NCBI RefSeq assembly: GCF_030450125.1 | Contig: NZ_CP123923.1 | Location: 1,736,001 to 1,800,000, forward strand | DNA: 64,000 bases | Source of the DNA: Streptomyces sp. WP-1 | GTDB lineage: Bacteria; Actinomycetota; Actinomycetes; Streptomycetales; Streptomycetaceae | Direction: 5' to 3' | Shown: one piece after another, positions 1-10,645 of the stretch | Layout of the letters: each line of letters starts with the position of its first letter | Position numbering within the stretch: the first letter of the stretch is position 1 | Translations under genes and position numbers: made by a program | The notes under the pieces: generated by a model | Told to the model about the DNA's origin: nothing | The model's database searches: none | The model's input: only the letters and a program-made list of their open reading frames with translations

Positions 1-48
1 GAGGCGAACACCAGTGCAACTTCAGATCGTCCATAGCTACCCACCCGA

Positions 49-63
49 AAAGACTTGGTCTTT
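49..63. promoter_or_regulatory. Perfect 15-bp palindrome upstream of first small ORF
   Basis: AAAGACTTGGTCTTT is a perfect inverted repeat (6-bp arms, 3-bp centre) lying 28 bases before the start codon of the small ORF at 91. It could be an operator or a short hairpin in the leader. Nothing in the window identifies a cognate regulator. The sequence around it is clearly less GC-rich than the rest of the window. Confidence 0.35.
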
Positions 64-90
64 ACAGCCGACGGCCGAACAAGGAGATAA

Positions 91-189
91 ATGGCGGATC
101 AGAAGAACTCTGCCGACGCCATGCGACTTGTGTCCGACCTTGACACGTCTCCTGACGTTACGTCAAGATCACGACGCTGCTCGCAGTAG
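91..189 (+). CDS. Small ORF of 32 codons with strong RBS; possible peptide gene
   Basis: The ATG at 91 is preceded by AAGGAGATAA, one of the best Shine-Dalgarno sequences in the window. The peptide has 32 residues, begins MADQKNSADAMRLVSDLDTS and ends RSRRCSQ, with a single Cys three residues from the C-terminus and several Asp, Ser and Thr residues. It has no signal peptide or membrane segment. It lies about 220 bases before a two-gene unit encoding an AsnRS-like ligase and an FMN oxidoreductase, so it could encode a substrate peptide for them, but it could equally be the decayed end of a gene: the base composition is unlike typical Streptomyces coding sequence. No family was recognised. Confidence 0.35.
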   Translation: MADQKNSADAMRLVSDLDTSPDVTSRSRRCSQ

Positions 190-407
190 AGAGTAAACCT
201 CCGACTTTGACTTCGCGGACGAGGGACGGCCTTGAAGGGCTGTGCTTCATCTCACACGCAAAGGTTGCGACCGGCTTGCGTTCGCTTACGAAATAGGTCA
301 GAGCAAAGGCAAATGATTTCTCAACGTTGGTTCAGCCTGAGGTGAGCGGAATGTTTCGCCCCGGATCGGCCGGCCGACGCGACCGACGGACATGAAAGGT
401 TACGAGG

Positions 408-1403
408 TTGTCCCAGGAGACGGGTAGGGTCCAACTGCCCACCCCACGCGCCCACCTGACGTCGGACCGGACCCGCGCCACGCTGGCGGTGCAGAGCAAG
501 TTCCTTGCCGGGGCCAGGGAGTTCCTGGTCGGCGAGGGCTTCCAGGAGCTGCTGCCGCCCACGATCGGACCGGTCACCGACCCCGGCGCCCGCGGTGCCA
601 AGCAGGTCGACATCGACTACTACGGGCACCGCTACAAGCTGATGACCAGCGGAATCCTGTACAAGCAGGCCTCCCTGCTCAGCTTCGACAAGATCTTCCA
701 CGTGGCCCCGAACGTGCGACTCGAACCGCTGGAGACCGCGGTCACCCACCGCCACCTGGTGGAGTTCCACCAGCTCGACGTGGAGATCGGCGAGGGCTCC
801 CGCGAGGACGCCCTGGACATCGCCGAGCGGCTCACGAAGCACGTGGTGGAGTACGTCCTCGTGCACGCCCAGCCCGAACTGGCGGTGCTCGGCCGCGACT
901 TGGAGGCATTCAAGCAGATACTCGCCGGCCCCTACGGCCGCCGGAGCCACGCCGACGTCGTCGCGGACCTCCAGGCCCGCGGGCACGCGCAGGAGGCCGG
1001 TGCGGAGGTGGACTGGGAGGGCGAGGAGATCATCTCCCGGGCCGCCGCCCACCCCTTCTTCATCACCGACTACCCCAAGGGCTCGCGCGGCTTCTACGAC
1101 AAGGAGAGCACGACGGAGCCGGGGGTGCTGCGCAACTTCGACCTCATCTTCCCGGGCGGTTTCGGCGAGATGATGAGCGGAAGCGAACGCGAATCCGACT
1201 ATCGCAATCTCGTCATGCGCATCCGGGAAACCGGCGAGAACCCCGCCAAGTATGACTGGTACTTGACGCTGGCCCGCGAGGGACTCCCGTCCAGCGCCGG
1301 CTTCGGGCTCGGCGTGGAGCGCTTCACCCGGTTCCTGTGCGGCCTCGACGCGGCCTGGCAGGCGTCGGGCTACCCGAAGCTCCCGGGGGACCCGCGGCCA
1401 TGA
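408..1403 (+). CDS. Class II aaRS-like ligase, catalytic domain only (AsnRS / asparagine-synthetase-related)
   Basis: This 331-residue protein is the class II catalytic core of the AspRS/AsnRS type without the N-terminal OB-fold anticodon-binding domain. Visible signatures are SGILYKQ (about 81-87), the motif 2 region NVRLEPLETAVTHRHLVEF (about 102-120) with the ATP-binding Arg, and motif 3 GFGLGVERFTRFL (about 298-310). Length and architecture resemble the archaeal AsnRS-related asparagine synthetase, which makes asparagine from aspartate through an acyl-adenylate without tRNA. A free-standing amide-forming ligase is therefore likelier than a tRNA synthetase, but the substrate is unknown. 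The start is TTG at 408, because an in-frame stop lies just upstream at 393 and GAAAGG provides a spaced RBS; GTG at 489 would remove part of the fold. The stop overlaps the next start as ATGA, implying translational coupling. Confidence 0.82.
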   Translation: MSQETGRVQLPTPRAHLTSDRTRATLAVQSKFLAGAREFLVGEGFQELLPPTIGPVTDPGARGAKQVDIDYYGHRYKLMTSGILYKQASLLSFDKIFHVAPNVRLEPLETAVTHRHLVEFHQLDVEIGEGSREDALDIAERLTKHVVEYVLVHAQPELAVLGRDLEAFKQILAGPYGRRSHADVVADLQARGHAQEAGAEVDWEGEEIISRAAAHPFFITDYPKGSRGFYDKESTTEPGVLRNFDLIFPGGFGEMMSGSERESDYRNLVMRIRETGENPAKYDWYLTLAREGLPSSAGFGLGVERFTRFLCGLDAAWQASGYPKLPGDPRP

Positions 1404-2656
1404 CCGATCTCCACGCCCCGGGCTTCCCCCGGCAGCAGGTGGCGGAACGCGCCCGGCACGGCACCGCGTCGGCGTTCCCCGAAGCCGCCGGCTACGGGAC
1501 GACCATGTTCGGGCAGGGGCCCCCGGAGCCGGACGTGCCCCTGGACGCGATCGACCGGACCCGGCTGGTGCCCCCGGTCTTCGTGCCCCGGCGCCTTGAG
1601 CGGCTGATCGACCTGGGCCGCGAGCCGGTGGTGTCGGACGCCGAACTCGCCACCACCATCGGGGGGTTCAGCGCTCCGCTGCCGGTCTACGTCTCCGCGT
1701 TCGGCTCGACCCGGGTCGCCAGCGGCGACCTCGGCCAGGCCGTAGCACGCCAGGCGGGCCGGCTGGGCATCCCCATGGTCATTGGCGAGAACATCGTCCC
1801 TGTCGCCGGATACGGCCGCATGACGGAGACGGCTCCCAGCTCGCTGCTGCAAAGGATCACGGAGTACGCCGCCGCCGTCCCCGACGGACAGGGCGGTGTG
1901 GTCGTCCAGCAGAGCACCGAGGACGCCGACGCCGAGGTCTGGAACCTCGTCTACAGCGATCCCGCGGTGCAGCCGCTGCTCGAATCGGGCCGTCTGGCCT
2001 TCGAGTTGAAGGTGGGCCAGGGCGCCAAGCCCGGTCTGGGCGGCATGACGCTCGTACCTCGGGAGAAGGCCACGGCGCTCTCCGCGCAGTACGACCTCAT
2101 GGACGTCTTCGGCGCCCACAGCGACGCGGTGCTGCGGTGCAGCAGTCCGGGCACCTTCACCGACGAGATCCTGCGGCACCAGATCCGGCTCATGCGGAAC
2201 AACTATCCGCGCTGCCGGGTGTGGGTGAAGCTGCCGCCGGCCCGCGATGTGGGCGAGGCGGCGGCCGTCGCCTGGGCGGCCGGGGCGGACGCGGTCGGCG
2301 TGGACGGCGCCGAGGGCGGCACCGGCTGGGCGCCGCGGGCGTTCCTCGGCCATGTCGGGCTGCCGCTCGCGGAGTGCCTCGGCCGGATCGACCCCCAGGA
2401 CCACTGCCTGCTGGTCACCGGGCGGATCTGGGAGGGGGCGCGCGCCACCAAGTGCCTCGCGCTCGGCGCCCGCGCCGTGGGTCTGGGCCGGGCCGCGCTC
2501 GCGGCGGTGGACGAGGATCCCCAGAGCGGTCTGGTGAACCTGGTGGAGTGCCTGGCGCTGGAGATGCGGATGCTGCTCAGTTCGCTCGGCAAGTACGAGA
2601 TATCCGAGCTGGGCCGGGAGGATCTCTGGTCCGAGGAGCGGCCGGGGCCCCGCTGA
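1400..2656 (+). CDS. FMN-dependent glutamate-synthase-domain protein (GltB-like, no glutaminase)
   Basis: The 418-residue product matches the FMN-binding TIM-barrel domain of glutamate synthase, which in GOGAT reduces the 2-oxoglutarate/ammonia iminium. The glutaminase and beta-helix domains are absent. Recognisable segments are ELKVGQGAKPGLGG (substrate/FMN loop), the barrel segment GADAVGVDGAEGGTGWAPRAFLGHVGLPL, LVTGRIWEGARATKCLALGARAVGLGRAAL, and the C-terminal helix NLVECLALEMRMLLSSLGKYEI. The Cys clusters of a 3Fe-4S site are not obvious. Free-standing members occur as oxidoreductases of unknown substrate. The start overlaps the ligase stop by four bases, so the two proteins are probably made together in one pathway. 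Downstream hairpins at 2792-2874 end the unit. Confidence 0.82.
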   Translation: MTDLHAPGFPRQQVAERARHGTASAFPEAAGYGTTMFGQGPPEPDVPLDAIDRTRLVPPVFVPRRLERLIDLGREPVVSDAELATTIGGFSAPLPVYVSAFGSTRVASGDLGQAVARQAGRLGIPMVIGENIVPVAGYGRMTETAPSSLLQRITEYAAAVPDGQGGVVVQQSTEDADAEVWNLVYSDPAVQPLLESGRLAFELKVGQGAKPGLGGMTLVPREKATALSAQYDLMDVFGAHSDAVLRCSSPGTFTDEILRHQIRLMRNNYPRCRVWVKLPPARDVGEAAAVAWAAGADAVGVDGAEGGTGWAPRAFLGHVGLPLAECLGRIDPQDHCLLVTGRIWEGARATKCLALGARAVGLGRAALAAVDEDPQSGLVNLVECLALEMRMLLSSLGKYEISELGREDLWSEERPGPR

Positions 2657-2791
2657 CCGGGGCGCGGAATGCGCGGGCGCCGTCCGCGACGGGTGATCGT
2701 CTCCCCGGACCGGGCGGCGCCGCACGCGTGAACGAGCGGCTGGGCCCCGACGCCACCGGCGTCACCGACTGGGCTACGGCCCTGCTGCCGG

Positions 2792-2821
2792 ACGAGCCGA
2801 CACGGTGATCGTCCGGCTCGT
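2792..2821. terminator. Small hairpin downstream of FMN oxidoreductase
   Basis: ACGAGCCG (2792-2799) pairs with CGGCTCGT (2814-2821) around a 14-base loop. It lies just before the stronger hairpin at 2826-2875, between two convergent units. Confidence 0.4.
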
Positions 2822-2825
2822 TGCG

Positions 2826-2875
2826 CGGGACGGCACGGCCGAGGAGCGTGCAGCGTCCCGCGCCGTGCCGTCCCG
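2826..2875. terminator. Strong bidirectional hairpin between convergent genes
   Basis: CGGGACGGCACGGC (2826-2839) pairs perfectly with GCCGTGCCGTCCCG (2862-2875) across a 22-base loop. It sits between the 3' ends of the FMN oxidoreductase gene and panE. There is no T-run on the plus strand, as is usual for Streptomyces terminators. Confidence 0.65.
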
Positions 2876-2886
2876 TGTGCCGGTGG

Positions 2887-3816
2887 TCAGGCGGAGGGGG
2901 CCACCGCCGTGCCGTCGGACAGTTCCGCGACCAGGCGGGTGACGAGCGGCACCTCGATGCCGTGCCGCTCGGCCGCCCGCAGTACGGCGCCGCCGATCGC
3001 GTCCAGCTCCAGCGCCCGGCCGGCCTCCGCGTCCTGCAGCATGGAGGACTTGCTCGGCGCCGGGAAGGCGTCGTAGCGCGCGAGCACCTGGGCGGCGTCG
3101 CCCGGTCCCCCGCAGGCCCGGCTCACCGCGGTGGTCTCCTCGACCAGCGCCGCCAGCTCCTCGGGGTGCTCGTCCCGGACACCGCCGATCGGCAGTCCGT
3201 AACGTGTCGTGAGCAGGGCGAAGGGCGCGAGGAAGGCCAGCTTGGCCCAGAGGGCGGCGTTCTCGTCGGCGACCGTGCGGGTCTTCACCCCGGCGCCGTT
3301 CAGCACGGCGGCCAGCGGCGCGAGCCGGGCCTCGTCCGCGCCGGCCACGTCGATCTCGGTGAAGGGGCTGCCGTGCTCGACGACGCCCGGGGCGGGGCGG
3401 GCGGACGCGACCCGGATGACGGCCGGTACGACCTGTCCGTCGCCGTAGCGGGCGCGCAGCGCGGCGACGTGCTCGACGCCGTTGAGCAGCGGCAGCACGA
3501 ACCCCCGGGCGAACCGGGGCGGCACCCGGTCGAGCGCCGCGTCGAGCGCGGTGTGCTTGACCGTGACCAGGCACAGGTCGACGGGCTCGCGCAGTTCGGT
3601 GTCGGCCTCCACCCGGGCGGTGAAGCCACCGTGCTGCCCGCTGGACACCCGGATGCCGTCCCGGGCCAACGTACGCGCGGTGTCCTCGCCCGCCAGGCAG
3701 ATCACGCGGTGTCCGGCACGGGAGAGCAGGGCCGCGAGGAGGCCGCCGATGCCTCCGGGGCCCAGTACGGCGATGGTCCAGGGCGTTGCGGGCGCGGTGT
3801 CCGGCGCGGTGTCCAT
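2887..3816 (-). CDS. panE: 2-dehydropantoate 2-reductase (ketopantoate reductase)
   Basis: The 309-residue protein reduces ketopantoate to pantoate with NADPH in pantothenate and CoA synthesis. The N-terminal Rossmann motif VLGPGGIGGLLAALLSRAGH is at about residues 16-35. It is followed by CLVTVKHTALDAAL, with the substrate-side Lys, and the C-terminal helical domain with NAALWAKLAFLAPFALLTTRYG and PAPSKSSMLQDAEAGRALELDAIGG. The last segment is the typical KSSML/ELDAI block of the family. The ATG at 3816 was chosen over the more upstream frame because the first Rossmann strand follows about 14 residues later and AAGGAGAG precedes it. It is monocistronic, convergent with the upstream two-gene unit. 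It could serve another 2-oxo acid, since Streptomyces usually carry several paralogues. Confidence 0.88.
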   Translation of the reverse strand: MDTAPDTAPATPWTIAVLGPGGIGGLLAALLSRAGHRVICLAGEDTARTLARDGIRVSSGQHGGFTARVEADTELREPVDLCLVTVKHTALDAALDRVPPRFARGFVLPLLNGVEHVAALRARYGDGQVVPAVIRVASARPAPGVVEHGSPFTEIDVAGADEARLAPLAAVLNGAGVKTRTVADENAALWAKLAFLAPFALLTTRYGLPIGGVRDEHPEELAALVEETTAVSRACGGPGDAAQVLARYDAFPAPSKSSMLQDAEAGRALELDAIGGAVLRAAERHGIEVPLVTRLVAELSDGTAVAPSA

Positions 3817-4204
3817 AGAAGGGGTGCCCTCTCCTTGGGTCGCGCGAGCGACCGGGGGATCGTCAGGATGTCCGGCAAGATCATCAGTTTGGGCCGGGGG
3901 CTCCGTCAACCCCAGGGACCGCCGGGGACGCCGTGGAGAAGCCCCGGCACGGTCCACGGACCGTCATCGGGCTCCCACTGTGCGTCGAAAAGGAGGGTCG
4001 CCGGAAACCGCCTCGCGACCGGCTTCCCCTCCCCCGAATCGGGCCGTTTCGGGCCGTTTCGGGGCCCCGGCTTGTGACGCCACCCATAGGAGCCACATCA
4101 CGTCCTAGGCCAGGCCGTAGGAACCGGGGGCCCTGAGCTGCGCGGATATCTCCATACCAGGGCATAACGGTCATCGCTCCGAAGTCGGGTAGTACGTCAC
4201 ATCC

Positions 4205-4310
4205 TTGCCAAGCACTTCGGGCCCGGCTAACCATTGCTGTCGTTGCCGGGAAGCAACGGGCCGGACCGAGCGGATCTCCGCCGGGATCAAACGCCCGGTC
4301 CCACCCGCAG
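4205..4310 (+). promoter_or_regulatory. Structured leader before transglycosylase gene; possible cis-regulatory RNA
   Basis: In the long leader, GGCCCG near 4220 can pair with CGGGCC near 4256. The enclosed segment contains a second small stem, TTGCT (4232-4236) with AGCAA (4250-4254). Streptomyces cell-wall hydrolase genes are often preceded by structured leaders, some of them c-di-AMP riboswitches. The conserved blocks of that riboswitch class were looked for and not convincingly found. No other gene is seen in 3817-4387. Confidence 0.3.
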
Positions 4311-4387
4311 CGCGGGGCTCACCGCCCCACCGCCACCGCGAGACTCGCGGCAGGCACGACCTTGTCCCCCAGAGGAAGAGTTCACGC

Positions 4388-4888
4388 ATGACCATGGCCA
4401 CCACCCGCACCCGCATCGCCCGCCTCGCCGTCACCGGTCTCGCCACCACCGGAGCCGCTGCCGCGGCCCTGACCCTGGTGCCGACCGGCGCGCAGGCCGC
4501 CGAGATGCCGCAGGTGCACGCCTCTGTGGTCAAGGCATCCCACACCACCGCCGCCAAGGCGGGCTCCGGCAACAACCTGGACGGCTGGATCAAGCAGTCG
4601 CTGGCCATCATGAAGGCCAAGGGCATCCCCGGTAGCTACGACGGTCTCAAGCGCAACATCATGCGCGAGTCCGGCGGTAACCCCAACGCGCAGAACAACT
4701 GGGACATCAACGCCAAGAACGGCGTTCCGTCCAAGGGTCTGCTCCAGGTGATCTCCCCCACCTTCAACGCGTACCACGTCTCCGGTACCGCGAAGAACAT
4801 CACCGACCCGGTGGCGAACATCACCGCCGCGGCCAACTACGCCGCCCACCGCTACGGTTCGATCGACAACGTCAACTCGGCGTACTGA
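4388..4888 (+). CDS. Secreted SLT-type lytic transglycosylase
   Basis: This 166-residue protein has a Sec signal peptide (RTRIARLAVTGLATTGAAAAAL, with cleavage likely after GAQA near residue 37) and a single soluble lytic transglycosylase domain. LKRNIMRESGGNPNAQNNWD holds the catalytic Glu of the ES-x-GNP motif. SKGLLQVISPTFNAY is the GLLQ block, and ITAAANYAAHRYGSI closes the fold. It would cleave the MurNAc-GlcNAc bond of peptidoglycan outside the cell, as in spore germination and growth remodelling. The start is ATG at 4388, preceded by AGAGGAAGAG; a second ATG lies at 4394. It is a single gene with a long structured leader and a perfect terminator behind it. Confidence 0.88.
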   Translation: MTMATTRTRIARLAVTGLATTGAAAAALTLVPTGAQAAEMPQVHASVVKASHTTAAKAGSGNNLDGWIKQSLAIMKAKGIPGSYDGLKRNIMRESGGNPNAQNNWDINAKNGVPSKGLLQVISPTFNAYHVSGTAKNITDPVANITAAANYAAHRYGSIDNVNSAY

Positions 4889-4917
4889 TCGCGGCAGTCG
4901 ACGCGGTCCCCGCTCCG

Positions 4918-4959
4918 AAGGCCGGTGCCGGCAGCTCCCACGCTGCCGGCACCGGCCTT
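4918..4959. terminator. Perfect 18-bp stem terminator
   Basis: AAGGCCGGTGCCGGCAGC (4918-4935) pairs perfectly with 4942-4959 around the loop TCCCAC, followed by TTCC. It ends the transglycosylase transcript and, read on the other strand, can end the SNF2-SWIM transcript. Confidence 0.88.
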
Positions 4960-5003
4960 TTCCATGTCCGCCTTCCAGGCCCGCGCGGGACCGGGGTGTT
5001 GGG

Positions 5004-7796
5004 TCAGCCGCCGTCCGGGGTGCCGAGTCCGGTGAGCGCGCCGACCGGATCGAGGTCGGGGGTGCCCCGGGGCCACCAGTCCTCCTCGCCGGGCTCGGAC
5101 TCGTAGACGTACCACAGCCCGTCGCGGCCCAGGCGGAGCTGGACATGGCCGAGCGGATGGGTGAGCCGGTTGCGCCAGGGCCGGAACGCGGGCAGGTCGG
5201 CGGCGAGCAGCAGCGGTCTGGCCCGGTCGAAGCGGCCGGCCGGCGGGTCCCACGGCTCCTCCAGGACGGCCAGCCCCTCCACCCCGCCCTGCCGCCAGGC
5301 GGCGACGGCCCGGGCGAGGTCGGCCGGGGTGCGGTCGGTGGCCCGGGCGAGCGTCGCGTAGAGCGCGCGGGTCGTCACGGTCAGGCCGGAGCCGGGGCGG
5401 GCCGCGGCGAGCCGTACCGCGTCCTGCCACAGGGACAGCTCGCCGACCGGGTCGCGTCCGGTGCCGAGCAGCGCGTGCGCGCGGGCGGCGGCGTCGGTCG
5501 CCAGCTGGTCCAGCGCGAACGGGTCCGGGCCGCCGGGGGCCGCGGGATACGCCGGGGGCTGCTCGGGGTGCGCGGGGACCGGCGCGGGCGGGGGCAGCGG
5601 GGGGCGCTCGCGCGGGGCGAGGGCCTCGGTGGCGCGGATCCCGGGCAGGGCGGAGGGCTGCCGTTCCTGTCCGTCGCGGGCCGCACGGGCGGCGCTGCGC
5701 CGGGAGAGCGCGTCGAGCAGCTCCCGCTCGCCCCGGCCGCGCAGGAGCAGCAGCACGAAGGGGTCGGCGTCGAGCAGCCGCGCCGTCTGGTAGCAGAGGG
5801 CGGCCGCGTGCTTGCAGGGGTGGCCCGAGTCGGGGCAGCTGCACCGGGGGGCGAGGTCGCCGGGGCCGGGCAGCAGCGGGACCCCGCAGTCGGCGAGGGA
5901 CTGGGGCAGCTCCTTGTCGAGCAGCGCGGCGATATGGCCGGGCCGGTCGACGGCCGCGTCCAGGAAGCGCTCCCACTCGGCGTCCGCCAGCGGCCGCACC
6001 CGCACCTGGACGCGGTACGGGCGGGGGCGGCTCCCCCGCACATAGGCGAGGACGGATCCCGGGGTGACGGTGATCGCGTCCACATGCCCCTGGTCCGCGT
6101 ACCCCCGGCCGCGCGCCACCCGCTTGGCGTCCAGCGCGCCCCGCTCCAGCGCCGTCACCCACGCGTTCCCCCACCAGGTCCCGGCGAACGGCCCGTCCCC
6201 GGCGCGCTCCCCACGGGGCGCGAACGGCGGGAACGTGCGCCGGTGCTCACCGTCCCGGTGCGGTGTGGCCATGGTCGGCGGCGCGTGCGGGACGGTGGGC
6301 TCGTGCGCGGGCTCGTGCTCGTGCTCGTGCTCGGGGAGAGGGGAGGGCGCGGGCTCGTCCTCCACCTCGGCATCGGTCTCCGGCGGCATCCGGAAGGCGT
6401 TCTTGAGGAAGTGCCGCATCTCACCGGCCGCCTTGAGCCGCGCGGCACGGGAGGGGTCGTGCTCGGCGGGACGCGTGGAGGAGGGTCCGCCCTTGCCACG
6501 GCCCTCGGTGGTACGGGCCTCGGCGCCGGCCCCCACCGAACGTCCAGCCTTACGCCGCCCACCACGCTCGGCCTCCGCCGCCTCCGCCTCCACCCGCAAC
6601 GCCTCCCGCCGCGCGGCCCGCAGGGCCTCCCGTGCGATGTCGCCGGGGCGGGGGCGGGGGGTGATGTCGGCGGCGAGACTCGGGCCGGGGCCGGAACTCG
6701 CACTGGAGTCGGGACCCGGGCCGGAGTCGGGGCTGGGGTCCGGGCCGGGGCTGGGATCGAGGCCACGGCTCGGGTCCAGGCCGGGGCTCGGATCCAGGCC
6801 GGGGCTCGGATCCAGGCCGGGGCTCGGATCCAGGCCGGGGCAAGAGTCGGAAACGCGGCCGGGAGTGAGGTCACGGTCGGAGTCGGTCTCACGATCGGGG
6901 CTCAGGTCCGGATCGGGGCGAGAGTCGGAGACGCGGCCGTGAGTGGAGCCACGGTCGGGGTGGGTCTCACGGTCAGGGTGTGCATCACGGTCGGGGGTGA
7001 GGTCGCGACCGGGATCGGTGTCATGGCCGGGAGCGGCGCCCTGGGTGAGACCGGTGTCACGACCGAGACCGGTCTCACGGCCGAAGCCGTTGCCGCGGCC
7101 CTGACCGGAATGGCGGCCCTGGTCGGAGTGACGGCCGAGGCTGGAATCACGGCGCAGGTCGAAGTGACGGTCGAGACGGGGGTCACGGCCCTGCCCGGTA
7201 GCACGGCCCTCGTCGGAGTGACGGCCGAGGCTGGAATCACGGCGCAGGTCGAAGTGACGGTCGAGACGGGGGTCACGGCCCTGCCCGGTAGCACGGCCCT
7301 GACCGCTGGCACCGCTCTGGCCAGAGGCACGGCCCTCGTCGGAGTGACGACCCTGGTCGGAGTGATGACCGACACTGCAATCACGGCGCAGGCTGAGGTC
7401 ACGAGCGGGCGCGGAGTCACGCCCGAGGCCGGTCTTCTCCCCTCCCTCCCTTTCCGCCCTCTCCCCCTCGAACCCCGCGTCCGCCCTCTCGAACCCCGCG
7501 TCCGTTCCCTCACCCCTCGCGCCCGCCCCCTGAGCCCTCGCATCCGGCCGCCGAGTCCCCGCGCCCGCCCCCTGGGCCCTCACATCCGACCCCTGGGCCC
7601 TCGCGTCCGCCTCCTGAGCCCCCACATCCGCCCCCCGGGTCCCCGCGTCCGCCCCCCGGGCCCCCTCCGTCCCGGCCGAGCCCTCCGACGCCGTCCGTGT
7701 CTCCACCCGCTCAGCCCCCGGCAGGGCCCGGCGGCGTGCCGCCCGCAGGGCCTCGCGGGCCAGGTCGGCCGGGCGGGCGGGGTCGGTGGGGGTCAT
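5004..7796 (-). CDS. SWIM zinc-finger protein with huge repetitive N-terminal region
   Basis: The 930-residue protein ends with a conserved half carrying a SWIM zinc finger, CSCPDSGHPCKHAAALCYQ (about 651-669, C-x-C...C-x-H), of the type found next to SNF2 ATPases in actinobacteria. The role is probably in DNA binding or chromatin-like remodelling with that partner. Residues about 40-380 are low-complexity Arg/Asp/Gly-rich sequence built from recent repeats: two identical 30-residue blocks (90-bp DNA repeat) and a GLDPSP hexapeptide array. The segment AREALRAARR occurs near residue 14 and again just before the conserved part, as if the repeats expanded between two copies. The start overlaps the SNF2 stop by ATGA. 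Typical family members are several hundred residues shorter. Confidence 0.85.
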   Translation of the reverse strand: MTPTDPARPADLAREALRAARRRALPGAERVETRTASEGSAGTEGARGADAGTRGADVGAQEADARAQGSDVRAQGAGAGTRRPDARAQGAGARGEGTDAGFERADAGFEGERAEREGGEKTGLGRDSAPARDLSLRRDCSVGHHSDQGRHSDEGRASGQSGASGQGRATGQGRDPRLDRHFDLRRDSSLGRHSDEGRATGQGRDPRLDRHFDLRRDSSLGRHSDQGRHSGQGRGNGFGRETGLGRDTGLTQGAAPGHDTDPGRDLTPDRDAHPDRETHPDRGSTHGRVSDSRPDPDLSPDRETDSDRDLTPGRVSDSCPGLDPSPGLDPSPGLDPSPGLDPSRGLDPSPGPDPSPDSGPGPDSSASSGPGPSLAADITPRPRPGDIAREALRAARREALRVEAEAAEAERGGRRKAGRSVGAGAEARTTEGRGKGGPSSTRPAEHDPSRAARLKAAGEMRHFLKNAFRMPPETDAEVEDEPAPSPLPEHEHEHEPAHEPTVPHAPPTMATPHRDGEHRRTFPPFAPRGERAGDGPFAGTWWGNAWVTALERGALDAKRVARGRGYADQGHVDAITVTPGSVLAYVRGSRPRPYRVQVRVRPLADAEWERFLDAAVDRPGHIAALLDKELPQSLADCGVPLLPGPGDLAPRCSCPDSGHPCKHAAALCYQTARLLDADPFVLLLLRGRGERELLDALSRRSAARAARDGQERQPSALPGIRATEALAPRERPPLPPPAPVPAHPEQPPAYPAAPGGPDPFALDQLATDAAARAHALLGTGRDPVGELSLWQDAVRLAAARPGSGLTVTTRALYATLARATDRTPADLARAVAAWRQGGVEGLAVLEEPWDPPAGRFDRARPLLLAADLPAFRPWRNRLTHPLGHVQLRLGRDGLWYVYESEPGEEDWWPRGTPDLDPVGALTGLGTPDGG
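6745..6834. repeat. 18-bp tandem repeat coding for GLDPSP
   Basis: Three identical 18-bp units lie at 6781-6798, 6799-6816 and 6817-6834 (CCGGGGCTCGGATCCAGG), preceded by two diverged units at 6745-6762 and 6763-6780. In the minus-strand SWIM gene they encode a hexapeptide array. The unit length keeps the frame open, so copy number can vary without breaking the gene. Confidence 0.9.
7122..7300. repeat. 90-bp direct tandem duplication inside SWIM gene
   Basis: The 89 bases at 7122-7210 recur without a mismatch at 7212-7300, a 90-bp period. The duplication adds 30 residues to the disordered region of the SWIM protein. The lack of divergence indicates a recent event or ongoing homogenisation. 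Confidence 0.92.
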
Positions 7797-10645
7797 GGGG
7801 TGCTCCGCAGGGAGACGAGGTCGGAGAGTTCGCGGTCGGTCAGTTCGGTGAGGGCGGCCTCACCGGAACCGAGGATGGCGTCGGCCAGAGCCCGCTTCGC
7901 GGCGAGCATCTCGGCGATCCGGTCCTCGACCGTGCCCTCGGTGACCAGGCGGTGGACCTGGACGGGCTGGGTCTGGCCGATGCGGTAGGCGCGGTCGGTG
8001 GCCTGTTCCTCGACGGCCGGGTTCCACCAGCGGTCGAAGTGCACGACATGCCCGGCACGGGTGAGGTTGAGGCCGGTGCCCGCGGCCTTCAGGGAGAGGA
8101 CGAGCACCGGCGTGGCGCCGTCCTGGAACCGGTCGACCATGCGCTCGCGCTCCGGCACCGGGGTGCCGCCGTGCAGCAGGTCCACGGGGACCGCGCGGGC
8201 GGACAGATGGGCGGTGATGAGCCGCGCCATGCCGACGTACTGGGTGAAGACGAGCGCCGAGCCGTCCTCGGCGAGGACCGTGTCCAACAGCTCGTCCAGC
8301 AGGGCGAGTTTGCCCGAGCGGTGGACCAGCCGGTCGGTGGCCCCGGCCTCCTTGAGGTAGAGCGCGGGGTGGTCGCAGATCTGCTTCAGCGCGCCGAGCA
8401 GCTTCAGGACGAGGCCCCGGCGGGCGATGCCCTCGGCGGTCTCGATGGCCAGCATCGACTCACGCACCACCGCCTCGTACAGCGCGGCCTGTTCGCGGGT
8501 GAGCGGCACCGGGTGGTCGGTCTCGGTCTTCGGCGGCAGCTCCGGGACGATGCCCGGGTCGGACTTCTTGCGCCGCAGCAGGAAGGGCCGGACGAGGCGG
8601 CCGAGCCGGTCCACGGCCTCCTGGTCCTCGCCGTTCTCCACCGCGCGGGCGTGCCGGGCGCGGAAGGACTTCAGCGGGCCGAGCAGTCCGGGGGTGGTCC
8701 AGTCGAGCAGGGCCCACAGCTCGGAGAGGTTGTTCTCCACCGGGGTGCCGGTGAGCGCCACCCGCGCGGGGGCCTCGATGGTGCGCAGCGCCTTGGCGGT
8801 GGCCGAGTAGGGGTTCTTCACATGCTGGGCCTCGTCCGCGACGACCATCCCCCAGGTGTGCCCGGCGAGTTGGGCCGCGGCGGAGCGCATCGTGCCGTAC
8901 GTGGTGAGGACGAAGCCGCCGTCGGGCTCGGCCAGGGTGCGTTCCGTGCCGTGGAAGCGGCGGACGGGGACGCCGGGGGCGAACCGGTTGATCTCCCGCT
9001 GCCAGTTGCCCAGCAGGGAGGCGGGGCAGACGACGAGGGTGGGTGCGCTGCGGGCCCGCTTCAGGTGCAGGGCGATGAGGGTGACGGTCTTGCCGAGGCC
9101 CATGTCGTCGGCCAGGCAGCCGCCGAGGCCGAGGGAGGTCATCAGGTCGAGCCAGGCGAGGCCGCGCAGCTGGTAGTCGCGCAGGGTGGCGGCGAGGCCG
9201 GGGGGCGCCTCGGCGGGGCGCAGGCCCGCGGTGAGGCGGTCGCGGAGGGCGGCGAGGGCGCCGACGGGCACGGCCCGGACGGTCTCGCCGTCGACCTCGG
9301 CGGTGCCGGTGAGCGCCACGGACAGCGCGTCGAGGGGGTCGAGCAGGCCCAGTTCCCGGCGGCGGGCCTTGCGGACGAGGGCGGGGTCGACGAGCACCCA
9401 GCGGTCCCGCAGTCGTACGACGGGACGGTGGGCCTCGGCGAGGGCGTCCATCTCGGCCTCGTCCAGCGGGTCCCCGCCGAGCGCGAGCTGCCAGCGGAAG
9501 CTCAGCAGGTCCGCGCTCTCGAAGAAGCCGGTGCCGTCGGTCGCGGAGCCGGGCGCGGGCCGCACCTCGGCGGTGGCGGTGAGGTCGCGGGCGAGGTCCC
9601 GGGGCCAGTGCACGGCGACCCCGGCGGCGGCCAGCCTGCTCGCCGCGAGGCCGAGCAGGTCGCCCACTTCCTCCTCGGACAGGGCGAGGACGTCGGGCAC
9701 GTCCTGTTCGGCGAGCCGGTCCAGGGGCGGCCAGACGCGTCCGGCGCGGCGCACGGCGAGGGCCGCGTCGACCCGGGCGCGGGGCCCGAAGGCGGTGTCG
9801 GCCTCGCCCGCCCACAGGGCGGCCGCGTCGGCCACGAGGGTGGGGTCGGCGAGGCTGTGGACCTGCACGATCGCGGCCCCGGCGGCACGGGCGCCCGCGC
9901 TCGCGCCGGTGTCGAAGGCGTCGTACGCGGACAGGTCCAGGCGCAGCGAGATCCGTACGCCCGCGTCCATGCCGGCGGCGACCTCGGCCGCCCACGCGTG
10001 CGCGCCCGGCAGGGACTGGGGCTCGCGTGCGGCGAAGGGGCGGCCGCAGGCGTGGGCGGCGGCGGGGGTGCGGGGCAGGGTGTCGGCGATCGCGTCCAGG
10101 AAGGAGCGGACCAGCGCCTCCGGCTCGGGCAGCCGCAGCGGCCCGGGGTCCGGCAGCGGCACGGCGTGTCCCTCCGGGGGCAGGGCGGCGGCGATCGCGC
10201 GCAGGTGGGCGATGTCGCCGGGCTCCAGCGGACCGGCCCGCCAGGCGTCCTGGCCGCCCGAGGTGAGGCCGGGCAGCAGCCGCCCCCAGGCGACGAGCCG
10301 CAGCGCGTGCAGCGCGGCGGCGCCCCAGCAGGCGGTGGCGGGGTGCGCGGCGGGGTCCCGGCGGGCGCGGACCAGCAGGGGCAGGGCCGCGGCGAGCGGC
10401 AGGCTGAGCGCGGGCACCCGTCGGCGGCGCACGGTGGCGCCGTGCGGTCGTACGACCGTCAGCTCCTCGGGGTCGCCGGCCGCGGCGGGCAGGGGCTCGC
10501 CGTCGGGGTCCCAGAAGGCGATACGGCCCTCGCGCGGCAGCGGCGCGGGCAGGTAGAGCGCGGCCAGGCGCACCGGCACCGGGTCCCCTGCGGACGCCGT
10601 CCGGGAACCCGCCGTCCGCTCGGCCGTCGTCACCACACCGCTCAT
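7793..10645 (-). CDS. SNF2-family DEAD/DEAH-box ATPase (Swi2/Snf2 helicase-like)
   Basis: The 950-residue protein is a bacterial SNF2 translocase. The N-terminal half is the SNF2-associated region. The ATPase core follows: ADDMGLGKTVTLIALHLKRA (Walker A), VVADEAQHVKNP (DEAQ box), LTGTPVENNLSELWALLDW (motif III), LVFTQYVGMARLITAHL, VLVLSLKAAGTGLNLTRA (motif V) and DRAYRIGQTQPVQVHRLV (motif VI with the Arg finger). It would move along double-stranded DNA using ATP, probably acting with the overlapping SWIM protein. ATG at 10645 is preferred because GGGAGGTG lies at the right distance; the GTG 12 bases upstream overlaps that ribosome site. It follows the small membrane protein gene by 85 bases. 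Confidence 0.92.
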   Translation of the reverse strand: MSGVVTTAERTAGSRTASAGDPVPVRLAALYLPAPLPREGRIAFWDPDGEPLPAAAGDPEELTVVRPHGATVRRRRVPALSLPLAAALPLLVRARRDPAAHPATACWGAAALHALRLVAWGRLLPGLTSGGQDAWRAGPLEPGDIAHLRAIAAALPPEGHAVPLPDPGPLRLPEPEALVRSFLDAIADTLPRTPAAAHACGRPFAAREPQSLPGAHAWAAEVAAGMDAGVRISLRLDLSAYDAFDTGASAGARAAGAAIVQVHSLADPTLVADAAALWAGEADTAFGPRARVDAALAVRRAGRVWPPLDRLAEQDVPDVLALSEEEVGDLLGLAASRLAAAGVAVHWPRDLARDLTATAEVRPAPGSATDGTGFFESADLLSFRWQLALGGDPLDEAEMDALAEAHRPVVRLRDRWVLVDPALVRKARRRELGLLDPLDALSVALTGTAEVDGETVRAVPVGALAALRDRLTAGLRPAEAPPGLAATLRDYQLRGLAWLDLMTSLGLGGCLADDMGLGKTVTLIALHLKRARSAPTLVVCPASLLGNWQREINRFAPGVPVRRFHGTERTLAEPDGGFVLTTYGTMRSAAAQLAGHTWGMVVADEAQHVKNPYSATAKALRTIEAPARVALTGTPVENNLSELWALLDWTTPGLLGPLKSFRARHARAVENGEDQEAVDRLGRLVRPFLLRRKKSDPGIVPELPPKTETDHPVPLTREQAALYEAVVRESMLAIETAEGIARRGLVLKLLGALKQICDHPALYLKEAGATDRLVHRSGKLALLDELLDTVLAEDGSALVFTQYVGMARLITAHLSARAVPVDLLHGGTPVPERERMVDRFQDGATPVLVLSLKAAGTGLNLTRAGHVVHFDRWWNPAVEEQATDRAYRIGQTQPVQVHRLVTEGTVEDRIAEMLAAKRALADAILGSGEAALTELTDRELSDLVSLRSTP

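Follow-up and report, generated by a model that had tools for sequence, protein, structure and literature searches.

The window analysed here is a stretch of 64,000 nucleotides from Streptomyces sp. WP-1 (contig NZ_CP123923.1, G000:C1:1736001-1800000), and at its left end two overlapping genes encode a ligase related to class II aminoacyl-tRNA synthetases and a flavin mononucleotide (FMN) protein related to glutamate synthase. We found that this ligase-FMN pair is half of a four-gene cassette, the other half of which encodes the two subunits of a glutamate mutase, MutS and MutE. The product of the cassette is very likely an amino acid derived from methylaspartate. Tentatively, and with clearly less than even confidence, we propose that the cassette is an undescribed interchangeable module that converts glutamate, by way of 3-methylaspartate and 3-methylasparagine, into a didehydro or imino amino acid oxidised by the FMN enzyme. 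The module would combine a class II synthetase-derived ligase with a new Fe-S-free family of glutamate synthase-like FMN proteins, and would serve three assembly logics (non-ribosomal peptide synthetases (NRPSs), ATP-grasp peptides and hydrazine-type pathways) in Streptomyces, Nocardia, Amycolatopsis, Kribbella, Lentzea and others. A glutamate mutase pathway with these two added steps was not described in the open-access literature searched, a scope outside which most subscription papers lie, and we know of no product for any cluster that carries the ligase-FMN pair. Within this literature, the two papers listed as containing both glutamate mutase and an asparagine synthetase or synthase deal with nickel/cobalt/B12 genomics and with gut microbiota.

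A four-gene cassette with glutamate mutase

Scanning 84,980 species genomes with the ligase gave 175 loci with relatives, the best 80 of which were kept. To these were added the locus of this genome, a plasmid locus and 20 of the 23 further loci that an even sample of 150 Streptomyces genomes had yielded (loci on short contigs of genomes G113, G116 and G147 were left out), for a total of 102 loci. All were fetched by the ligase, and merging identical ones leaves 96 distinct loci. A tblastn comparison detects the ligase and the FMN gene in all 102 loci, MutE in 100 and MutS in 99; the FMN gene of L073 aligned over its first part only. Among the distinct loci the FMN gene is found in 96, MutE in 95 and MutS in 94. 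The misses are strain ISL-66 (L038/L097), which has a MutE on another contig (G046:C183), and, for MutS, also L081, a contig of 4.1 kb. The ligase and FMN genes lie at most 60 bp apart in 89 of the 96 loci, and 1.5-2.5 kb apart in five Kribbella-type loci. The order MutS-MutE-ligase-FMN is found in 72 loci, the mutase genes are divergent on the left in 17, and seven have other arrangements. Five loci (L089, L105, L110, L114 and L121) have MutE and the ligase joined in a single frame of 759-767 amino acids without interruption.

The distribution of the two proteins agrees when each is searched independently. The ligase is detected at E<1e-100 in 23 of the 150 Streptomyces genomes (24 loci). Exactly these genomes, again with 24 loci, hold the FMN protein at E<1e-160, the next matches of the FMN model being partial and near 1e-22. 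MutE is more widespread (60 of the 150 genomes), and is present in 22 of the 23 genomes with the pair; in the 23rd (G113), the ligase is located on a 7-kb contig. Thus, the mutase exists without the ligase-FMN pair, but the pair is hardly ever seen without the mutase. In an even sample of 296 genomes of the phylum, the ligase was detected in two, one of which is this genome.

A first-pass annotation of the window, made from the sequence alone, had described a unit composed of a small open reading frame (ORF) and the two enzymes, and had read it as a natural-product or peptide-modification system. Both enzymes were named correctly, and their co-occurrence in all 96 distinct loci and in the same 23 Streptomyces genomes bears out that a ligase of an adenylating, amide-forming type and a flavin oxidoreductase make up a conserved unit in natural-product surroundings. 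The actual unit goes beyond this pair, as it includes the two mutase subunits encoded to the left of the window, and the peptide part of the proposal did not hold (see below).

The mutase subunits are recognised by Pfam (B12-binding, 49.3 bits against a cut-off of 32.1, for MutS; Met_asp_mut_E, 253.1 bits against 26.6, for MutE), but do not reach the NCBI equivalog cut-offs for methylaspartate mutase (135.6 against 390.1 for E; 52.4 against 110 and 43.9 against 135.8 for S). When MutE is aligned to GlmE of C. cochlearium, the equivalents of R66, R100, R149, E171, Y177 and Y181 are all kept, and these six columns are at least 98% conserved in 96 aligned MutE sequences (of 98 called). We take the three arginines to be the substrate-binding residues of GlmE, and the glutamate and the two tyrosines to be catalytic. 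This genome encodes a second glutamate mutase E homologue far from the cluster (G000:C1:4608649-4609800). In published clusters, two-subunit mutases make 3-methylaspartate for secondary metabolites (GlmA/GlmB for friulimicin and VinH/VinI for vicenistatin), and the mutase product is given as (2S,3S)-3-methylaspartate (PMC9113097, PMC11284099).

The ligase and its FMN partner

The Pfam domain tRNA-synt_2 (PF00152), the catalytic core of the Asp/Asn/Lys class II synthetases, covers residues 16-324 of the ligase (164 bits). The protein scores 417.6 bits against the NCBIfam asparagine synthetase A model NF005052 (cut-off 368), which all 35 family members scanned match at E 1e-20 or better, and 182.5 bits against the better of the asparagine--tRNA ligase models, below its cut-off of 414. 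By fold it matches asparaginyl-tRNA synthetase (AsnRS), aspartyl-tRNA synthetase (AspRS) and archaeal asparagine synthetase A (AsnA). The alignment begins at residue 83 or later (at least 83) in the listed AspRS and AsnRS chains and at residues 1-11 in archaeal AsnA, so the N-terminal anticodon-binding domain of the tRNA synthetases is absent from the ligase. Only 14 residues precede the aligned core, compared with 116-142 in three AspRS-type proteins of Streptomyces (L026, L029 and L032); the other four of the seven comparison loci (L027, L028, L030 and L031) and the L002 control were left out, their translations being in the wrong frame. Judged by its sequence, the ligase thus consists of the AspRS/AsnRS-type core alone and belongs to the asparagine synthetase A kind, as the first-pass annotation had recognised from the missing anticodon-binding domain.

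The lysine of the LYKQ motif (K86) is conserved in 94 of 94 near full-length members aligned (of 97 called). A lysine is present at this place (LYKQ/LHKQ) in AspRS and archaeal AsnA, whereas the AsnRS sequences compared have Leu or Ala. We assume that this lysine reads the side-chain carboxylate; its retention in every member therefore indicates that the ligase should read an acid side chain. What weighs against this reading is that the top overall PDB match of the ligase is AsnRS. An ordinary AsnRS that has lost its N-terminus by decay, which the earlier annotation had named as a possible refutation, was nevertheless rejected on the basis of the NF005052 matches, the N-terminus comparison and the checked residues, which are kept across the 94 members (except that E304 is Q in eight).

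The FMN protein of 418 amino acids matches Pfam Glu_synthase (PF01645, 76 bits, cut-off 20.4) and FMN_dh (54 bits), and no glutaminase (glutamine amidotransferase) domain was matched by Pfam anywhere in it, which confirms the previous reading that only the FMN domain of glutamate synthase is present. It scores below the NCBI cut-off of every model listed for it. The motifs of the glutamate synthase FMN region, KVGQGAKPGLGG and DGAEGGTG, are present and invariant in the family alignment, and binding of an alpha-amino or imino acid is therefore plausible. We used as a yardstick what we take to be the three-cysteine 3Fe-4S motif of glutamate synthase; no such triplet follows the FMN region, and the sole near-invariant cysteine (Cys 326, 86 of 88 aligned) lies inside it. 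The predicted model has a barrel of the alpha-hydroxy-acid oxidase/type 2 isopentenyl diphosphate isomerase (IDI-2) type, with a mean predicted local distance difference test (pLDDT) score of 79 but values below 50 in the motif loops, and the nearest matches include IDI-2. The 50 fold matches listed do not include glutamate synthase, an absence that does not speak against a relation because large chains may rank low. One copy of the FMN gene (G075:C5:33580-34809) carries an internal TGA and is thus a pseudogene or a sequencing error.

Gene clusters around the cassette

The left edge of the window cuts a gene cluster, part of which lies outside it; window position 1 corresponds to position 14001 of L003, the locus extended to the left. 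The features at this end of the window are as follows.

1-34, minus strand: first codons of a luciferase-like monooxygenase (LLM) gene, SsuD-like, with its start codon at window position 34 and reading left out of the window (genome G000:C1:1734967-1736034)
91-189, plus strand: 32-codon frame, rejected as a gene, with a 3' part that overlaps the inverted repeat
139-167, no strand: inverted repeat CTTGAC-N17-GTCAAG, in the divergent intergenic region between the ligase and monooxygenase genes
408-1403, plus strand: ligase gene, TTG start, 331 amino acids
1400-2656, plus strand: FMN-protein gene, 418 amino acids, sharing ATGA with the ligase gene at 1400-1403
2725-2858, plus strand: remnant of a LysR-type regulator, containing a tiny GTG frame at 2728-2808
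2887-3828, minus strand: ketopantoate reductase-like (PanE/ApbA) gene, TIGR00745 193.6 bits (cut-off 141.35)

The ATGA overlap of the two main genes and the stretch of lower GC had both been correctly observed before; GC is 0.58 over window positions 1-500 and 0.66-0.83 in 500-base windows from 1001 to 10000. Loci with a 98% identical ligase are found in S. murinus and S. griseofuscus records.

To the left of the window, a divergent operon encodes, in this order, the LLM monooxygenase (Bac_luciferase, 165 bits), a major facilitator superfamily (MFS) transporter (named from its sequence alone, with no family scan), glutamate mutase S, an ATP-grasp ligase (ATP-grasp_4), a PP-loop protein, glutamate mutase E, a second ATP-grasp ligase and a flavin reductase (Flavin_Reduct). 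An LLM monooxygenase of this cluster type is found in 20 of the 102 loci, including Nocardia and Streptacidiphilus. By gene calls, a PanE-like homologue adjoins the FMN gene, or is separated from it by one LysR gene, in 17 of these 20 loci. In an 18th (L058), the frame of the FMN protein continues into the reductase; this 788-amino-acid fusion was discarded, since the frame crosses a run of N. The PanE-like gene is probably part of this cluster type, and its product is a candidate NADPH reductase working downstream of the FMN enzyme.

The PP-loop protein (about 500 amino acids; L003 8496-10004) is encoded in 25 of the 102 loci, and its YGGGKDS motif and three cysteines are invariant in 25 of 25 aligned sequences. 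It has no match in Pfam or NCBIfam and no sequence relative in the PDB (best E 0.16). In L092, its gene overlaps the end of the FMN gene by four bases. The protein may be an ATP-dependent enzyme, so far undescribed, that amidates, thiolates or forms nitriles.

Gene-content clustering places NRPS-type proteins in 57 of the 102 loci. Amycolatopsis, Dactylosporangium, Kribbella-type and related genomes contribute 13 loci that carry a gene of the Lys/Orn N-oxygenase family and 10 with cupin and MetRS-like genes (the three families were named from members in L116). Such a set is known from N-N bond-forming (hydrazine-type) pathways. The occurrence of the same four genes in unrelated assembly contexts indicates a self-contained building-block pathway.

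Several of these loci have further genes. On a 155-kb linear Streptomyces plasmid (L033, NZ_CP134610.1), the cassette is accompanied by an NRPS, an MbtH protein and an ornithine carbamoyltransferase-like gene. A PALP-family gene is present in L044, L046, L110 and L114 (Pfam was tested in L044), with an ornithine cyclodeaminase-like gene beside it in L044 and L046, a pairing known from diaminopropionate synthesis. A homologue of the family-5 solute-binding proteins is encoded within the biosynthetic cluster of L116 (5214-6965) and relatives (15 loci); its called start (MTDKPIKGG...) is unlike a signal peptide, and it possibly acts in product binding or self-protection. Adenylation domains beside the cassette often show D-A/S-Y/F-Y-W-G..., with position 278 read by eye and no reference sequence aligned, a code that we take to be Val-like with Tyr at 278. 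This candidate marker of domains specific for the cassette product was not used as support, since the 20 kb around one domain that shows the pattern (G003:C10) contain no cassette gene; it is further weakened by other domains in cassette loci that carry different codes and by Val-type domains that also have Trp. Elsewhere in the window, the N-terminal part of a long minus-strand frame (5004-7796) contains many near-repeats in its translation at about 6300-7300 (DPSPGLDPSPGL, LGRHSDEGR).

Two short frames had been considered as possible genes. The first, of 32 codons with AAGGAGATAA in front, exists as a frame, but among the 11 related loci compared it is intact in two (L054 and L055), broken in L056 and L057 despite a 97% identical ligase, and absent in the other seven. 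It is overlaid on the inverted repeat, which occurs once in the window. The tested Streptomycetaceae sequences with this type of cluster all have the repeat (eight of eight, one of them with N16), and none of 10 Nocardia loci tested does. This repeat is probably an operator or a paired promoter element. We therefore rejected the frame as a small peptide precursor, and no conserved short precursor ORF of the kind expected for ribosomally synthesized and post-translationally modified peptides was found beside the enzymes in these loci. The second, the GTG frame at 2728-2808, likewise exists but is not a gene of its own: it matches residues 204-227, in the C-terminal part, of a LysR regulator of which L056 (the same as L034, where the Pfam LysR domains were found) and L057 have intact copies. 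The intact L057 protein (299 amino acids) matches the window in two stretches by tblastn (E 4e-5 and 0.006), and because the second lies farther along, 2725-2858 is regulator debris.

Proposed pathway, alternatives and known systems

We propose a four-enzyme pathway that would supply a peptide natural product with an amino acid derived from 3-methylaspartate, a scheme to which, as a whole, we give an even chance. In the first step, which is well supported, an adenosylcobalamin-dependent glutamate mutase (MutS and MutE) would convert L-glutamate to (2S,3S)-3-methylaspartate. The likely substrate of the pair is a free amino acid, this 3-methylaspartate, rather than a peptide, because the pair belongs with both mutase subunits. 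In the second step, the AsnA-like ligase would adenylate the beta-carboxylate and couple ammonia, giving 3-methylasparagine. The MutE-ligase fusions point to 3-methylaspartate as the natural substrate of the ligase, hence to this product; we propose that the ligase is a 3-methylaspartate beta-amide synthetase, and formation of a beta-amide is reasonably likely.

In the third and least certain step, the FMN enzyme would oxidise the amidated amino acid at C-alpha by two electrons, to an imine or the corresponding enamine tautomer (didehydro-3-methylasparagine). Since the 3Fe-4S cluster and the glutaminase domain of glutamate synthase are missing, FMN would be re-oxidised by O2 or another acceptor. 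The protein may thus act on C-alpha or the amine without Fe-S electron supply, by oxidation to the imine or enamine or by redox-neutral epimerisation; the proposal of a C-alpha oxidase or desaturase has, in our view, a little under an even chance. Later in this genome, the PanE-like reductase, the luciferase-like monooxygenase or both may process the product, the two ATP-grasp ligases would join it to other acids and the MFS protein would export it. In other genomes, the same cassette would feed NRPS or hydrazine-type clusters.

The redox-neutral version would have the FMN enzyme oxidise and re-reduce the bound amino acid, inverting C-3 or C-2, as a 3-methylasparagine epimerase. IDI-2, one of its nearest matches, uses FMN without net oxidation, and the four-gene cassette itself holds no partner that supplies or removes electrons. 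Also in its favour is the (2S,3S) configuration described for the mutase product. We nevertheless regard epimerisation as unlikely, as the glutamate synthase motifs fit net oxidation equally and a flavin reductase is present in the cluster of this genome.

Another possibility concerns the ligase, which might join the carboxylate of 3-methylaspartate to an amino acid, hydroxylamine or hydrazine rather than to ammonia, and thus form a peptide or hydrazide bond. EpmA-type models match the ligase weakly, the cores of class II synthetases also serve in other acyl transfers, and the hydrazine-type genes accompany the cassette in some loci. However, a single small nucleophile shared by all is the simpler explanation, given that the cassette does not change between NRPS, ATP-grasp and hydrazine contexts, and the clusters have separate ATP-grasp ligases or NRPSs. 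A partner other than ammonia therefore appears improbable.

The names given by NCBI, asparagine synthetase A for the ligase family and glutamate synthase-related protein for its partner, would suit nitrogen housekeeping, in which an ordinary aspartate-ammonia ligase supplies asparagine beside a glutamate synthase-like enzyme. This is very unlikely given the sporadic distribution of the pair, its linkage to glutamate mutase and biosynthetic genes, the MutE-ligase fusions and the missing cysteine triplet of the FMN protein. Peptide modification by a small system whose precursor would be the 32-codon ORF has in its favour a good ribosome-binding site, but this frame is so rarely kept, and so placed on the conserved repeat, that we consider such a system extremely unlikely.

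Amidation and oxidation of 3-methylaspartate would give a testable function to proteins publicly annotated as asparagine synthetase A and glutamate synthase-related protein. The ligase-FMN pair, present in 23 of the 150 sampled Streptomyces species, offers a genome-mining handle for clusters expected to hold a methylaspartate-derived residue. Should the FMN enzyme indeed oxidise or desaturate an amino acid, this would to our knowledge be a new reaction for a glutamate synthase-like protein.

In the friulimicin and vicenistatin systems, 3-methylaspartate is inserted unchanged or enters a polyketide pathway and is decarboxylated, and the parts of these accounts available to us do not mention any AsnA-like ligase and FMN enzyme as constant companions of the mutase (PMC9113097, PMC11284099). 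Among structurally characterised proteins, the archaeal asparagine synthetase A (AS-AR; PDB 3p8t, 3reu, 3rex, 3rl6 and 1nnh) has 294 amino acids compared with 331 in the ligase, the alignment being split between residues 159 and 204. These relatives make asparagine according to their PDB titles, whereas the ligase is encoded in a biosynthetic cluster and its proposed substrate has a 3-methyl group. AsnRS (PDB 1x54 and 9sh9) has its own N-terminal anticodon-binding domain and lacks the aspartate-type lysine; the ligase is the reverse.

The FMN region of the large subunit of glutamate synthase (PDB 1ea0 and 2vdc) shares the GAKPG-GG and GGTG motifs with the FMN protein, aligned over profile positions 200-369, but glutamate synthase also has a glutaminase domain and the 3Fe-4S cysteines, while the FMN protein stands alone without either. 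The other FMN TIM barrels, IDI-2 and the alpha-hydroxy-acid oxidases, are 15-25% identical to it. Finally, the second ATP-grasp ligase of this cluster matches the model of the dapdiamide synthase DdaF at 193.1 bits, far lower than the cut-off of 840, and is thus a related but different enzyme.

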